Positions 26,237 to 29,628 of a stretch of 64,000 nt of DNA are shown here, piece after piece. Position 1 is the first letter of the stretch. The number at the start of each line of letters is the position of its first letter. Under the pieces are notes generated by a model that did no database searches, was not told the origin of the DNA, and saw only the letters and a program-made list of their open reading frames with translations. This stretch comes from Psychroflexus aestuariivivens (GTDB lineage: Bacteria > Bacteroidota > Bacteroidia > Flavobacteriales > Flavobacteriaceae). A program made the position numbers and the translations under genes. Location: positions 248,001 through 312,000 of the forward strand of contig NZ_RQVT01000050.1 of assembly GCF_004010055.1 (NCBI RefSeq), written 5' to 3'.

Positions 26237-27253
26237 TTAAAGCAAATGAATGCCTTGTTCAGCTAGTGTTTTGCGCATAGTTTCTGGCCAAATACTGACT
26301 TGAACCTCTCCTATGTGATGCTTTTTCAGCATAAACATACAAAGTCTGGATTGACCAATACCGCCGCCGATGCTTTGGGGCAATTCATCTTTCAAAAGCA
26401 TTTGATGAAAAGGGAATTTCAGACGGTCAGTTTTTTCCTGTAATTTGCATTGATGCATTAATGATTCAGCATTGACTCGGATGCCCATTGAAGAGATTTC
26501 AAAAGCTTTTTCTAGTTTAGGATGCCAAACTAAAATATCACCGTTGAGTCCTTTCATCCCAGTTTCACTGGTTGAACTCCAATCGTCGTAATCTGGTGCT
26601 CGGTCGTCATGAATTTTATCATCGCCCAACTTACCGCCAATTCCGATAATAAATACTGCGCCGTGAGTTTTGGTGATTCGATCTTCCCTTTCTTTTTGGG
26701 TCAAATCTGGATAAAGTTGGCGTAATTCCTCGCTATGAATAAATGTAATATTTTTCGGTAAAGTTGATTTTAAATCTGGAAATTGTATTTCTACTAGTTT
26801 TTCAACTTCGGTTATAGCTTCATAAATTTTCTGTACAGTAGTTTTCAAAGTTTGAAGATTTCTATGTTCTGGTAAGATGTGTTTTTCCCAATCCCATTGG
26901 TCAACATAAAGTGAATGAATTGGAGAAAGGATTTCGTCGGTTCTTAAAGCACGCATATCTGTCCAAATACCTTGTCCTACTGGAATATCATATTTGCCAA
27001 GGATTTGGCGTTTCCATTTGGCTAAAGATTGTACCACTTCGCCAGATTCTTCCCCCATAGATTTTATGGGAAATTTTACTGGACGCTCAACGCCACATAA
27101 ATCATCGTTGATTCCTGTGTGTTTTTGAACAATTATCGGAGCAGAAATTTTCGATAAATGTAGCTTTTCTGCCAAGGCTTTTGAAAATTCATCTTTGACT
27201 AATTGGATGGCTTTTTCTTTAACTAAAAATGAGGTTTGAGTTTGTGTAATCAT
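26237..27253 (-). CDS. asnA: Aspartate--ammonia ligase (asparagine synthetase A)
   Basis: The 338-residue protein has AsnA features: KHTGINDDLCGVERPVKF, DMRALRTDE, FIIGIGGKLGDDKIHDDRAP, and the class II synthetase-like motif 3 GGGIGQSRLCMFML. It makes asparagine from aspartate, ammonia and ATP in the cytoplasm. Expression appears to be controlled by the 311-bp leader: two successive Asn-rich leader peptides, each followed by an intrinsic terminator with an alternative antiterminator pairing. The ATG lies 38 bases past the second terminator. It converges with hemF. Confidence 0.97.
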   Translation of the reverse strand: MITQTQTSFLVKEKAIQLVKDEFSKALAEKLHLSKISAPIIVQKHTGINDDLCGVERPVKFPIKSMGEESGEVVQSLAKWKRQILGKYDIPVGQGIWTDMRALRTDEILSPIHSLYVDQWDWEKHILPEHRNLQTLKTTVQKIYEAITEVEKLVEIQFPDLKSTLPKNITFIHSEELRQLYPDLTQKEREDRITKTHGAVFIIGIGGKLGDDKIHDDRAPDYDDWSSTSETGMKGLNGDILVWHPKLEKAFEISSMGIRVNAESLMHQCKLQEKTDRLKFPFHQMLLKDELPQSIGGGIGQSRLCMFMLKKHHIGEVQVSIWPETMRKTLAEQGIHLL

Positions 27254-27290
27254 GACTTTTGTTTTTAAATTATTATTTGTTTTGAGGTAT

Positions 27291-27320
27291 AAAAAAAGCC
27301 CGTTTTACTAAAAACGAGCT
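27291..27320 (-). terminator. asnA attenuator terminator 2
   Basis: On the minus strand AGCTCGTTTT-TAGT-AAAACGGGCT forms a 10-bp stem (one G-T pair) followed by six T, 37 bases before asnA. Its 5' arm GCTCGTTT (27319-27312) can instead pair with AAACGAGC (27348-27341) at the stop codon of leader peptide 2, a perfect 8-bp antiterminator. Confidence 0.88.
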
Positions 27321-27347
27321 GGAAAATTTTGACAATATTTGCTCGTT

Positions 27348-27398
27348 TCACGGTGGTGAATTACTGAAGTTTACATTATAATTGATTGCGTTTCTCAT
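27348..27398 (-). CDS. Asn-rich leader peptide 2 of asnA (16 aa)
   Basis: The frame ATG...TGA encodes MRNAINYNVNFSNSPP: five of 16 residues are Asn, at positions 3, 6, 8, 10 and 13. The stop codon abuts the antiterminator segment AAACGAGC. If ribosomes stall at Asn codons when charged Asn-tRNA is scarce, that segment is free to pair with the terminator arm and transcription continues; if they reach the stop they mask it and terminator 2 forms. Mechanism inferred by analogy to trp/his leaders. Confidence 0.72.
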   Translation of the reverse strand: MRNAINYNVNFSNSPP

Positions 27399-27409
27399 TT
27401 TTTTTCAAC

Positions 27410-27440
27410 AAAAAAAGCCTTTCCACATCGGAAAGGCTTT
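27410..27440 (-). terminator. asnA attenuator terminator 1
   Basis: On the minus strand AAAGCCTTTCC-GATGT-GGAAAGGCTTT is a perfect 11-bp stem continuing into a T7 run. The 5' arm (AGCCTTTCCG) can alternatively pair with CGGATAGGCT (27479-27470) at the end of leader peptide 1, nine of ten bases. It also sits where a plain terminator of the M13 peptidase gene would, so it may do both jobs. Confidence 0.85.
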
Positions 27441-27464
27441 TAATAAATTTATACTTTATTTAAA

Positions 27465-27533
27465 TCAATAGCCTATCCGCAATTCAAAATTTGAATTGTT
27501 ATTATTGCTATTATTTAAATTGATTTGTATCAT
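27465..27533 (-). CDS. Asn-rich leader peptide 1 of asnA (22 aa)
   Basis: The frame starts ATG ATA CAA ATC and ends TAT TGA. It encodes MIQINLNNSNNNN, then SNFELRIGY: eight Asn among 22 residues, clustered at positions 5-15. The last codons (CGG ATA GGC TAT) form the antiterminator segment for terminator 1, 30-40 bases downstream. Eight Asn codons in so short a frame directly upstream of the Asn biosynthetic gene are hard to explain by AT-richness alone, though AAT and AAC are favoured in AT-rich DNA. Confidence 0.75.
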   Translation of the reverse strand: MIQINLNNSNNNNSNFELRIGY

Positions 27534-27541
27534 AACTTAAG

Positions 27542-27572
27542 TAAAGTTAATTTAATTTTTGGAACTACCAAA
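27542..27572 (-). promoter_or_regulatory. Candidate asnA leader promoter
   Basis: On the minus strand TTTG (27572-27569) and TAACTTTA (27549-27542, one mismatch to TAnnTTTG) are separated by 19 bp, the usual Bacteroidota -33/-7 spacing. The -33 element overlaps the last codons of the M13 peptidase gene. Transcription would start only a few bases before leader peptide 1, leaving almost no 5' leader. Confidence 0.5.
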
Positions 27573-29628
27573 TTCTCACACGATCTTCTGGAGCAATGTA
27601 AAGCTCATCGCTTTCTTTCACATCGAAAGCATCATAAAATGCATCTACATTTTGTAACGGCACATAAGCTCTGTACATTCCTGGAGAATGTGGATCTGTT
27701 TTGATTTTTGTTTCCAAAGCTTCGTCTCTCATTTTGGTTCTCCAAACAGTTGCCCATGACATAAAAAATCTTTGCTCAGGTGTGAAACCATCAATTTTAC
27801 CTGGCTTGCCAGTTTTTTCCAAGTGCATTTGTAAACCATCGTAAGCGCCTAAAACACCACCTAAATCACCAATATTTTCTCCTAAAGTGAATTTTCCATT
27901 GATGTAAACGCTATCTAGAACTTCAATACTACTGTAGAGTTCAGCTAACTTTTCACCCCTTTCAGTAAATTTTTCTAAATCTTCGTCTGTCCACCAATTT
28001 TTCAAGTTACCGTTTGCATCAAATCTAGCACCACTATCATCAAATGCGTGAGATATTTCGTGACCGATAACGGCACCAATTCCACCATAATTAACAGCAT
28101 CATCTGCTTCATAGTCATAAAACGGAGGTTGTAAAATAGCCGCAGGAAAAACAATTTCGTTATACAAAGGATTGAAATACGCATTGACAGTTTGTGGTGA
28201 CATACCCCACTTAGTTTTGTCAACAGGTTTGCCTATTTTGCTTAAATTATCTCTATAATTCCATTCAGAAACAGCCAACATATTTTCGTAAAAAGTGTTT
28301 TCAGGATTTACTTCCAATTCACTGTAATCCTCAAATTCATCAGGATAGCCGATTTTTACAGTAAATTTATCTAGCTTTTCTATGGCTTGTACTTTAGTGT
28401 CTTCAGTCATCCAATCTAAGTTGTTAATTCTATTTTTAAAAGCCAGAATCACATTGTCTACCATTTTTTCTGCTTTTTCTTTGGCTTCTGGTGGAAATTT
28501 TTGGTCAACATAAAGTTTTCCAACCGCTTCACCAATTGTCCCGTTGACTACAGAAAGCGCTCGTTCATCAAGTGGTCTTTGTGCTTTTGCACCACTCAAA
28601 GTCTTACTGTAGAACTCCCAGTTTCTGGTTGCTAATTCCGTAGAAAGTTGACTTGCAGCATCATTGATAGTTGCCCATTGCATCAAAGTTTTTAAATCTT
28701 CAATATCACTTTCCATCATTATTTGATCAAGTGCTTTCATGTATTTCGGTTCCATAACCAAAACTGTATCAGGTTGTTTTTCAATCCCCAATCGGGTTAT
28801 GAAATCCTGCCAATCTATAGAAGATACAACAGTTCCTAGATCTTTGACCGCATATCTATTGTTGAAATTTCTAAAATCCCTTCTAGCAACTTTGTCTAAT
28901 CTTGGTTCAGCTAATTTGGTTTCATAAGCCAAAATAGTTTCTGCTTTTTTATTTGCTTCTTCTTGAGAAATACCGAAATAAGGCAACATTTTTGCTATAT
29001 GTAACTTATACTTTTCTCGTATTTCCTTAGAATTCTCATCATCCTCAAGATAATAATCACGATCTGGTAAGCCTAAACTTCCATTCCCGATGTAAGCAAC
29101 ATTCATATTACTATCATCTGGGTCAGAATAGACAGACAAACCAAAAAATGGTGCAGAAACAGTAGAAGGATGTTCAGCTAGTAAATTCTGAATATCTTTT
29201 ACGTTTTTAACAGCATCAATTTTTTCTAAAGTTGGCATGATTGGTTTCACACCAGCTTCATCTCTAGACACAGTATCCATGATAGAATTGAACACCTGAA
29301 TGGCTTTGCCTTGGTCCGATTTTGCATCATATTTACCAGAAGATTCTGCTTTTTTCAAAATTTCTAAAACATCATTATCTGTATTTTTTCTTAAAATTTG
29401 AAATCCACCCCAAGACGTTCTATCGTCAGGAATTTCAGCAGTTTTCATCCAATTGCCATTCACATAACTATAAAAATCGTCTTGTGGCTGCACCGTTGTA
29501 TCCATATATTTAACCTGAATACCGTGGGTTTTTTCCTCCTTTGTTTCCTTGCTTTTATCATTACTTTGACAAGAAAACAGTAAAGTTGCTGCTGTCATTG
29601 ACATCAGCGATAGTTTAAGCTTTTTCAT
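27565..29628 (-). CDS. M13 family metallopeptidase (PepO/neprilysin-like) lipoprotein
   Basis: The 687-residue protein has a lipoprotein signal (MTAATLLFSC, Cys 20) and both M13 zinc motifs: VIGHEISHAFDDSGARFD and ENIGDLGG. The C-terminal AFYDAFDVKESDELYI region is typical. It should cleave short peptides at the periplasmic or outer face. Length and domain order are complete. The only terminator downstream is the hairpin that belongs to the asnA leader. Confidence 0.95.
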   Translation of the reverse strand: MKKLKLSLMSMTAATLLFSCQSNDKSKETKEEKTHGIQVKYMDTTVQPQDDFYSYVNGNWMKTAEIPDDRTSWGGFQILRKNTDNDVLEILKKAESSGKYDAKSDQGKAIQVFNSIMDTVSRDEAGVKPIMPTLEKIDAVKNVKDIQNLLAEHPSTVSAPFFGLSVYSDPDDSNMNVAYIGNGSLGLPDRDYYLEDDENSKEIREKYKLHIAKMLPYFGISQEEANKKAETILAYETKLAEPRLDKVARRDFRNFNNRYAVKDLGTVVSSIDWQDFITRLGIEKQPDTVLVMEPKYMKALDQIMMESDIEDLKTLMQWATINDAASQLSTELATRNWEFYSKTLSGAKAQRPLDERALSVVNGTIGEAVGKLYVDQKFPPEAKEKAEKMVDNVILAFKNRINNLDWMTEDTKVQAIEKLDKFTVKIGYPDEFEDYSELEVNPENTFYENMLAVSEWNYRDNLSKIGKPVDKTKWGMSPQTVNAYFNPLYNEIVFPAAILQPPFYDYEADDAVNYGGIGAVIGHEISHAFDDSGARFDANGNLKNWWTDEDLEKFTERGEKLAELYSSIEVLDSVYINGKFTLGENIGDLGGVLGAYDGLQMHLEKTGKPGKIDGFTPEQRFFMSWATVWRTKMRDEALETKIKTDPHSPGMYRAYVPLQNVDAFYDAFDVKESDELYIAPEDRVRIW

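Follow-up and report, generated by a model that had tools for sequence, protein, structure and literature searches.

Organization of the asnA leader

The window, a stretch of 64,000 nucleotides from Psychroflexus aestuariivivens, carries on its minus strand an asnA gene, identified by a match of its product to TIGR00669 with 420.8 bits (cut-off 292.8, E 4e-126). It is preceded by a leader (27254-27572, minus strand) with two Asn-rich leader peptides, each provided with an intrinsic terminator and with a region 2 able to pair with the 5' arm of this terminator. In the following we call these two units gate 1 and gate 2. The features of the locus are:

27565-29628, minus strand: PepO-like peptidase gene, the upstream neighbour (top NCBIfam match, under its cut-off)
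27569..27572, minus strand: -33-like TTTG, 19 nt upstream of TAACTTTA, within the 3' end of the peptidase gene
27542..27549, minus strand: -7-like box TAACTTTA, 5/6 fixed positions, 8 nt before the ATG of peptide 1
27465..27533, minus strand: leader peptide 1 (MIQINLNNSNNNNSNFELRIGY, then stop), 22 aa, 8 Asn, putative sensor of gate 1
27507..27520, minus strand: gate 1 region 1 (Asn codons), with 27458-27472 as partner in the protector 1:2
27480..27498, minus strand: hairpin P1 of gate 1, spanning the final Asn codons (27491-27498 paired with 27480-27487)
27470..27479, minus strand: gate 1 region 2, CGGATAGGCT, antiterminator partner of region 3
27413..27441, minus strand: gate 1 terminator, 13 pairs, then a T-run; region 3 27429-27438, region 4 27416-27425
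27348..27398, minus strand: leader peptide 2 (MRNAINYNVNFSNSPP, then stop), 16 aa, 5 Asn, putative sensor of gate 2
27348..27359, minus strand: Ser-Pro-Pro-stop, the C-terminus of peptide 2, bordering region 2
27341..27348, minus strand: gate 2 region 2, AAACGAGC, antiterminator partner of region 3
27297..27320, minus strand: gate 2 terminator, 10 pairs, then a T-run; region 3 27312-27319, region 4 27298-27305
26237..27253, minus strand: asnA, aspartate--ammonia ligase, 338 aa, TIGR00669, the putatively regulated gene

The original prediction had described two frames with 8 Asn in 22 and 5 Asn in 16 residues, an intrinsic terminator with a T-run behind each of them, and a segment at each stop codon that could pair with the 5' arm of the next terminator. 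All three elements were confirmed, with the stems now counted as 13 and 10 pairs. In gate 1, CGGATAGGCT (27470-27479) pairs with AGCCTTTCCG (27429-27438) at 9 of 10 positions, and in gate 2, AAACGAGC (27341-27348) pairs with GCTCGTTT (27312-27319) at 8 of 8. The antiterminator duplex of gate 1 is weaker (-14.1) than the terminator (-16.4); the duplex of gate 2 (-13.0, loop cost uncounted) has no clear advantage over its terminator (-11.2), which lies 43 nt from asnA. The five Asn residues of peptide 2 are scattered and fewer than in most other gate 2 peptides. At the gathering score, Rfam gave no match in the window, T-box and the Phe, Thr, and Leu leaders included; in 11 loci compared with Rfam, sequences near the gates resembled the Phe, Thr, and Leu leaders below threshold, and no T-box appeared at E values up to 1.

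Conservation and covariation of the Asn gates

To the asnA loci of 80 genome contigs we added those of genomes sampled from the genus, family, class, and order, in which asnA is sparse (2/27, 23/299, 23/395, and 8/395 genomes, respectively). After removal of four duplicates (L108, L109, L110, L123), three loci with too short an upstream sequence (L076, L103, L104), and one cut by a contig (L115), 120 leaders were counted; the later addition of L159-L163 raised the set to 125, and since many loci are from Hymenobacter the leaders of both sets are not all independent. The detector looked for at least four Asn codons in 12, followed 8-130 nt on by a terminator, and ignored antiterminator pairing. 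It was positive in 58 of the 120 leaders and found two gates in 17, and the Asn codons used were AAT (450) and AAC (143). In dinucleotide shuffles of the same leaders one gate appeared in 5/2400 and two in none, the reverse complements gave 0/120, and other genes of the same loci 2/496. Judged by eye, the matches before other genes at L025 and L091 seemed to be due to chance in adjoining sequence. Among the 53 ORFs of at least 120 aa in the window, only asnA was positive, and it was so twice. AT-bias, which the original prediction had weighed as a source of coincidental Asn codons, was ruled out as cause by the shuffles, the reverse complements, and the neighbouring genes.

In the extended set, at least one Asn gate was present in 61 of 125 leaders and two in 19. 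The Asn runs expected in homologous leaders are therefore found, and the tandem arrangement does recur, but as the minority form among gated leaders (19/61). The gated Hymenobacter loci have gate 1 only, and three loci (L092, L093, L120) have gate 2 only. By the detector, 64 of the 125 leaders contain no Asn gate, among them all 13 Sphingobacterium loci and the asnA genes starting with MSYLIKP. One genome (G429) has two asnA copies (L114, L128), both without an Asn gate by the detector. When all 20 residues were scanned in the same way, Asn came out on top (58 leaders, 17 double), followed by Ile (56, 13) and Leu (32, 3). Ile was rejected as the sensed residue, because, except in L046, the Ile stretches of these leaders all overlapped Asn stretches of a different frame (55/56).

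Covariation was analyzed by pairing the zone from the last Asn codon up to the terminator with region 3 of the same leader or with region 3 of other leaders. After removal of near-duplicates, 28 of 55 gate-1 and 18 of 21 gate-2 sequences entered the permutation tests; five gates (L025, L036, L038, L059, L078) that the automatic rule had assigned to gate 2 were moved to gate 1 by eye. The own pairing was the stronger one, at -13.63 kcal/mol compared to -10.63 kcal/mol for swapped partners in gate 1 (28 leaders), and -11.67 compared to -8.71 kcal/mol in gate 2 (18 leaders). For either gate these values were reached by none of 20000 permutations, and as relatedness improves the swapped pairs, the test is conservative in that respect. 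In comparison with shuffled zones, z was below -1 in 28/28 gate 1s (mean -3.80) and in 15/18 gate 2s (mean -2.48), with L083 (z -0.2), L087 (0.9), and L120 (-0.9) not better than shuffled; the gate 2 of the window is none of these three. The gate-1 terminator showed compensatory, two-sided changes in 8 of 11 pairs. Alignments A1 and A2 were chosen subsets (28/58 gate 1, 20/23 gate 2), and RNAalifold recovered from the gate-1 alignment the terminator alone and neither P1 nor the 1:2 pairing. The covarying pairings proposed as a check on the original prediction were thus observed for 2:3 in both gates and for the 3:4 stem of gate 1, and the original prediction withstood the sequence part of its own refuting condition. 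Covariance models built from the leaders, which make this attenuator family searchable, scored 74.7 bits (gate 1) and 65.3 bits (gate 2) at the window's locus, itself part of the training sets; the next matches in the same genome had 36.4 bits for the gate-1 model and 36.7 bits, at gate 1 itself, for the gate-2 model.

These data bear on the trivial explanation that terminator 1 is the plain end of the peptidase gene and that the Asn-rich frames arose by drift in AT-rich DNA. Terminator 1 lies about 125 nt beyond the peptidase stop codon and could serve the peptidase gene too. The rarity of gates in the shuffles, reverse complements, and other genes, the covariation of region 2 with region 3, and the recurrence of the cassette before asnA, asnB, and gatC (see below) leave almost no room for this explanation, which at the level of sequence is already refuted.

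Two unlike gates and their possible action

The original prediction spoke of tandem attenuators. Both gates stand, but they are not copies of one design. The 3' end of region 2 precedes the stop codon in 55 of 58 gate 1s; of the 23 gate 2s, 16 have the start of region 2 no more than 5 nt from the stop codon. The final Asn codons of gate 1 are covered by P1, and many leaders have an outer stem that ties earlier codons to region 2. Compared to synonymous recodings, the P1 segment had z < -1.5 in 21 of 28 leaders (mean -2.30); taken by itself, this segment is weak at the window's locus (z -1.2). There, the peptide-1 region folds into a strong 1:2 hairpin (MFE -16.5, z -3.87, 0/200 shuffles), which was matched by 1 of 1000 synonymous recodings, and some of the 28 leaders have P1 only. 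Judged by its sequence, gate 1 has the full set of parts of a trp/his-type attenuator: the codon run, mutually exclusive 2:3 and 3:4 pairings, and a 1:2 protector.

Gate 2 shares with this type the codon run and the 2:3 and 3:4 pairings and has no clear 1:2 protector in the analyzed sequences. Recoding of the segment corresponding to P1 gave a mean z of -0.29, with values below -1.5 in 3 of 21 cases. Pro-Pro codons as RNA partner of region 2 were rejected, because synonymous recoding gave a mean z of 0.06 over the set, with 2 of 23 below -1.5. The window's gate 2 is one of these two (z -2.0) and has a 5-bp hairpin that reaches the start of region 2, through which the Ser-Pro codons may have a small pairing role at this locus. 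What sets gate 2 apart is a Pro residue within six codons of the last Asn, present in 19 of 23 gate 2s (14 with Pro-Pro) compared to 7 of 58 gate 1s (none with Pro-Pro), or in 16 of 18 (13 with Pro-Pro) compared to 2 of 28 without near-duplicates. All four Pro codons are in use (CCA 13, CCT 12, CCC 9, CCG 4). Pro is absent from four of the 23 gate-2 peptides (L092, L093, L120, L159), and in five leaders (L017, L073, L083, L087, L160) the frame continues beyond Pro-Pro and lacks a stop codon in the 35 nt after the last Asn codon. In three of these (L083, L087, L073), peptide 2 extends over Pro-Pro-Pro-Gly-Gly and across the terminator in the direction of asnA. As translation is slow at Pro-Pro and at Pro-stop, we propose that ribosomes are delayed on region 2 by the Pro end. 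If true, it would offer a handle on slow termination as a timer, for which a simple mutational test is possible.

In the 19 tandem leaders, the mean similarity score was 70.1 for the two gates of one leader; it was 95.4 between gate 1s and 81.8 between gate 2s, with exceptions in 3 of 19 leaders either way. As gate 1s are nearer to other gate 1s than to the adjoining gate 2, the pair does not resemble a recent duplication. The same scores argue against the view that one gate alone is active and the other a relic, decaying or redundant, that persists by descent, since both gates look old and separately maintained. Both are, moreover, kept in the 19 tandem leaders, which come from several orders, and the pairing covaries within gate 2 as it does within gate 1. 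In favour of a relic, the Hymenobacter loci with gate 1 only and the three loci with gate 2 only indicate that one gate can suffice, and gate 2 of the window is comparatively poor in Asn. On balance we regard a relic gate as unlikely. In several Hymenobacter leaders (L008, L013, L019, L024, L025, and others), a small hairpin following an A-run was seen by eye in the place of gate 2, between gate 1 and asnA, e.g., CTCCC..GGGAG followed by GGTGG.

The spacing between the last Asn codon and region 2, measured end to start, is 9-16 nt in gate 2 (median 14, n = 23) and has a median of 12 nt in gate 1, with 38 of 58 leaders at 11-13 nt and extremes of 0 and 18 nt (n = 58, near-duplicates included). 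A stalled ribosome covers about such a stretch downstream of its A site. A reported value is 12-15 nt downstream from the P site (PMC3641672). As the spacing approximates the ribosome footprint, region 2 would be roughly free as long as a ribosome is stalled on the final Asn codon and would become covered when this ribosome advances.

We therefore read the asnA leader as two Asn-tRNA-sensing, ribosome-mediated transcription attenuators in series and put the probability of this reading at roughly 0.88; the mechanism named in the original prediction gains support from the recurrence of Asn gates and from the covariation of the 2:3 and 3:4 pairings. RNA polymerase would start just before peptide 1 and would have to clear terminator 1 and then terminator 2. 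With plentiful Asn-tRNA, the ribosome would reach the stop codon and cover region 2, so that 3:4 forms and transcription terminates. With scarce Asn-tRNA, it would stall on an Asn codon, with region 2 beginning about at its edge, and the 2:3 pairing would form in place of the terminator. In gate 1 without a ribosome, region 1 would hold region 2 and the default state of the gate would be closed. In gate 2 the place of the protector is taken by a small hairpin at most, and its Pro end, often Pro-Pro-stop or Pro-Pro-Gly, might hold the finished ribosome over region 2 until termination. A double gate might sharpen the response to asparagine. A double attenuator with unlike gates for the same signal raises the question of what the second gate gains: the response could become steeper, leakage could drop, or the two gates could fail in opposite ways.

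With respect to the start of transcription, the TTTG at 27569-27572 matches what we take to be the -33 element of Bacteroidota promoters. The gap between the gate-1 stem and the ATG of peptide 2 is 14 nt and leaves no room for a promoter in between. The box TAACTTTA, which like the hairpin over peptide 1 was no part of the original prediction, agrees with the Bacteroidota -7 consensus TAnnTTTG (PMC9723704) at 5 of 6 fixed positions, a match reached by 45% of mononucleotide shuffles, and taken alone the box at this locus is suggestive only. A full 6/6 box occurs in 10 of 51 gate-1 upstream sequences compared to 2.9% of mononucleotide shuffles; nine of these ten boxes sit 7-25 nt before the gate-1 ATG, and none was found after terminator 2 (0/23). 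This promoter test omitted 7 gate-1 and 8 gate-2 sequences for which the script found no in-frame ATG. Just past region 2 of gate 1, an ATTG (27466-27469) that recurs in relatives beyond the need of pairing, as judged by eye, might be a polymerase pause site.

A different possibility is that the leader acts mainly at the level of translation or via Rho, through access to the asnA start or Rho sites, with the hairpins being secondary. Translational coupling is possible in those relatives whose gate-2 frames extend near the asnA start (L083, L087, L073). In the window, however, the gate-2 terminator stops short of asnA, T-runs follow both stems, and covariation backs both 2:3 and 3:4, which makes such a mode of action improbable as the main one compared to transcription attenuation.

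Attenuation is textbook knowledge for Proteobacteria. In Bacteroidota, where most mRNAs have no Shine-Dalgarno sequence, it has received little study. Known attenuators (trp, his, thr, ilv) combine a leader peptide rich in codons for the product, exclusive 2:3 and 3:4 pairings, and an intrinsic terminator. The asnA leader resembles them in these three respects, to which gate 1 adds the 1:2 pairing. It differs from them in the asparagine signal, in having two unlike serial gates for one signal, in its occurrence in Bacteroidota, and in a gate 2 with mostly a Pro end and without a clear 1:2 protector. A leader with two short ORFs, each of which acts in an attenuation-like manner, is also described for Salmonella mgtCBR, where mgtM senses ATP and mgtP proline and where the stems are unlike intrinsic terminators according to the authors (PMC3641672). 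As described there, mgtCBR answers two signals, whereas both peptides of the asnA leader are Asn-rich, so that it is not of the mgtCBR type. Within the family of the window organism, clues to leader-peptide attenuation before amino acid biosynthesis operons were reported for Flavobacterium psychrophilum, with structured 5' elements of pheA and hisG among others; the word asparagine is absent from the main text of that paper, and its attenuation section contains no asnA, gat, or tandem case (PMC9723704). The long 5' UTRs of Bacteroides thetaiotaomicron contain sORFs reminiscent of attenuation leader peptides, but the example given precedes a gene for a hypothetical protein, unlike the asnA leader, and asparagine, asnA, and asnB do not occur in the main text (PMC7366714).

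Asn gates before other genes

The original prediction had keyed the attenuator to the product of asnA. The Asn signal held, but the tie to asnA did not, as Asn gates also precede one asnB and gatC-gatA operons. The gate-1 covariance model matched in 47 of 299 family genomes at 53 places: 6 asnA genes, 28 gatC operons, 16 branched-chain leaders, and 3 plain terminators (L201, L202, L217). The gatC-gatA genes stand for the tRNA-dependent route to Asn. A single Asn gate before this operon was assigned in 28 of the 299 genomes, 25 being seen and three inferred because of a large ORF nearby. In 24 of the 25 gatC leaders the peptide has an in-frame ATG, which was not found in L182, and 7-10 Asn, typically as MxxNNNNNNNFNNPNx. 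The swap test within these 25 leaders, whose sequences are close to one another, was not significant (277/5000).

In two genomes in which the operon was read through (L221:649-5656 and L222:662-5660), it encodes GatC (a weak match below cut-offs), GatA (438.5 bits with a cut-off of 481.1, the best match by far), and a GatB::AspRS fusion of 1110-1112 aa, both halves of which scored above cut-off. The product of this operon (leaders L172-L200 and L220) is a candidate covalent transamidosome. An AsnRS model matched a large ORF in 27 of the 28 gatC-leader genomes; in 26 of them this ORF has about 1115-1123 aa and lies about 3.4 kb downstream of the gatC leader, where we take it to be the same fusion, and in G196 it has 809 aa and lies on another contig. 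Such an ORF was absent from all nine asnA genomes searched. A full AsnRS above cut-off was present in 36 of these 37 genomes; the remaining one, G296 (76% complete), had the fusion match alone. There was no overlap between the 28 gatC-leader genomes and the 23 asnA-positive genomes of the family, and asnB-type matches occurred in 9 of the 28. In 25 loci (among L172-L200 and L220), codons 29-55 of gatC encode an Asn-rich linker with 4-11 Asn per 27 residues, so the first gene of the operon itself demands Asn-tRNA. Before asnB-type genes of relatives, the detector found a gate at 1 of 30 loci (L148), and asnB was therefore rejected as a general alternative host.

Bacteroidetes were described as one of the clades with AsnRS, GlnRS, and GatCAB and without Asn synthetase, a set that fits the gat operon found here; a second AspRS was confined to Deinococcus-Thermus among the surveyed genomes (PMC4206432). 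The passages of this paper relevant here do not deal with regulation, and the word fusion is absent from its main text. Searches of titles and abstract beginnings, with most subscription journals outside their scope, retrieved no paper on an Asn attenuator or on a GatB::AspRS fusion. Within the searched literature, asparagine as the signal, a tandem of unlike gates for one signal, and the use before a gat operon appear to be new, while the working principles of each gate are established.

We tentatively suggest, at somewhat less than even odds, that Bacteroidota possess a movable Asn-tRNA switch that sits on the AsnA, AsnB, or GatC-GatA-GatB::AspRS route, and that a Pro-Pro pause, before stop or Gly, replaces the protector in gate 2, so that without a translation start gate 1 would be closed and gate 2 open. 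If the tRNA-route operon does carry such a switch, one movable element would serve whichever route supplies Asn, and the gat case would close a loop, with the leader reading the charged tRNA made by the enzyme under its control. With stricter filters and E values up to 1e-8, the gate-1 model matched in 4 of 385 class genomes, all at known asnA loci, suggesting that outside the family the cassette is either rare or too diverged for this model.

A similar terminator/antiterminator cassette with Ile/Val-rich peptides lies before ilvD and ilvE (L203-L219). By NCBIfam, these branched-chain leaders precede 10 ilvD and 5 ilvE genes, and L205 is cut by the contig end. The cassette thus seems to be a general attenuator module with exchangeable codons. 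One ilvD leader (L214) encodes six Asn beside five Ile.
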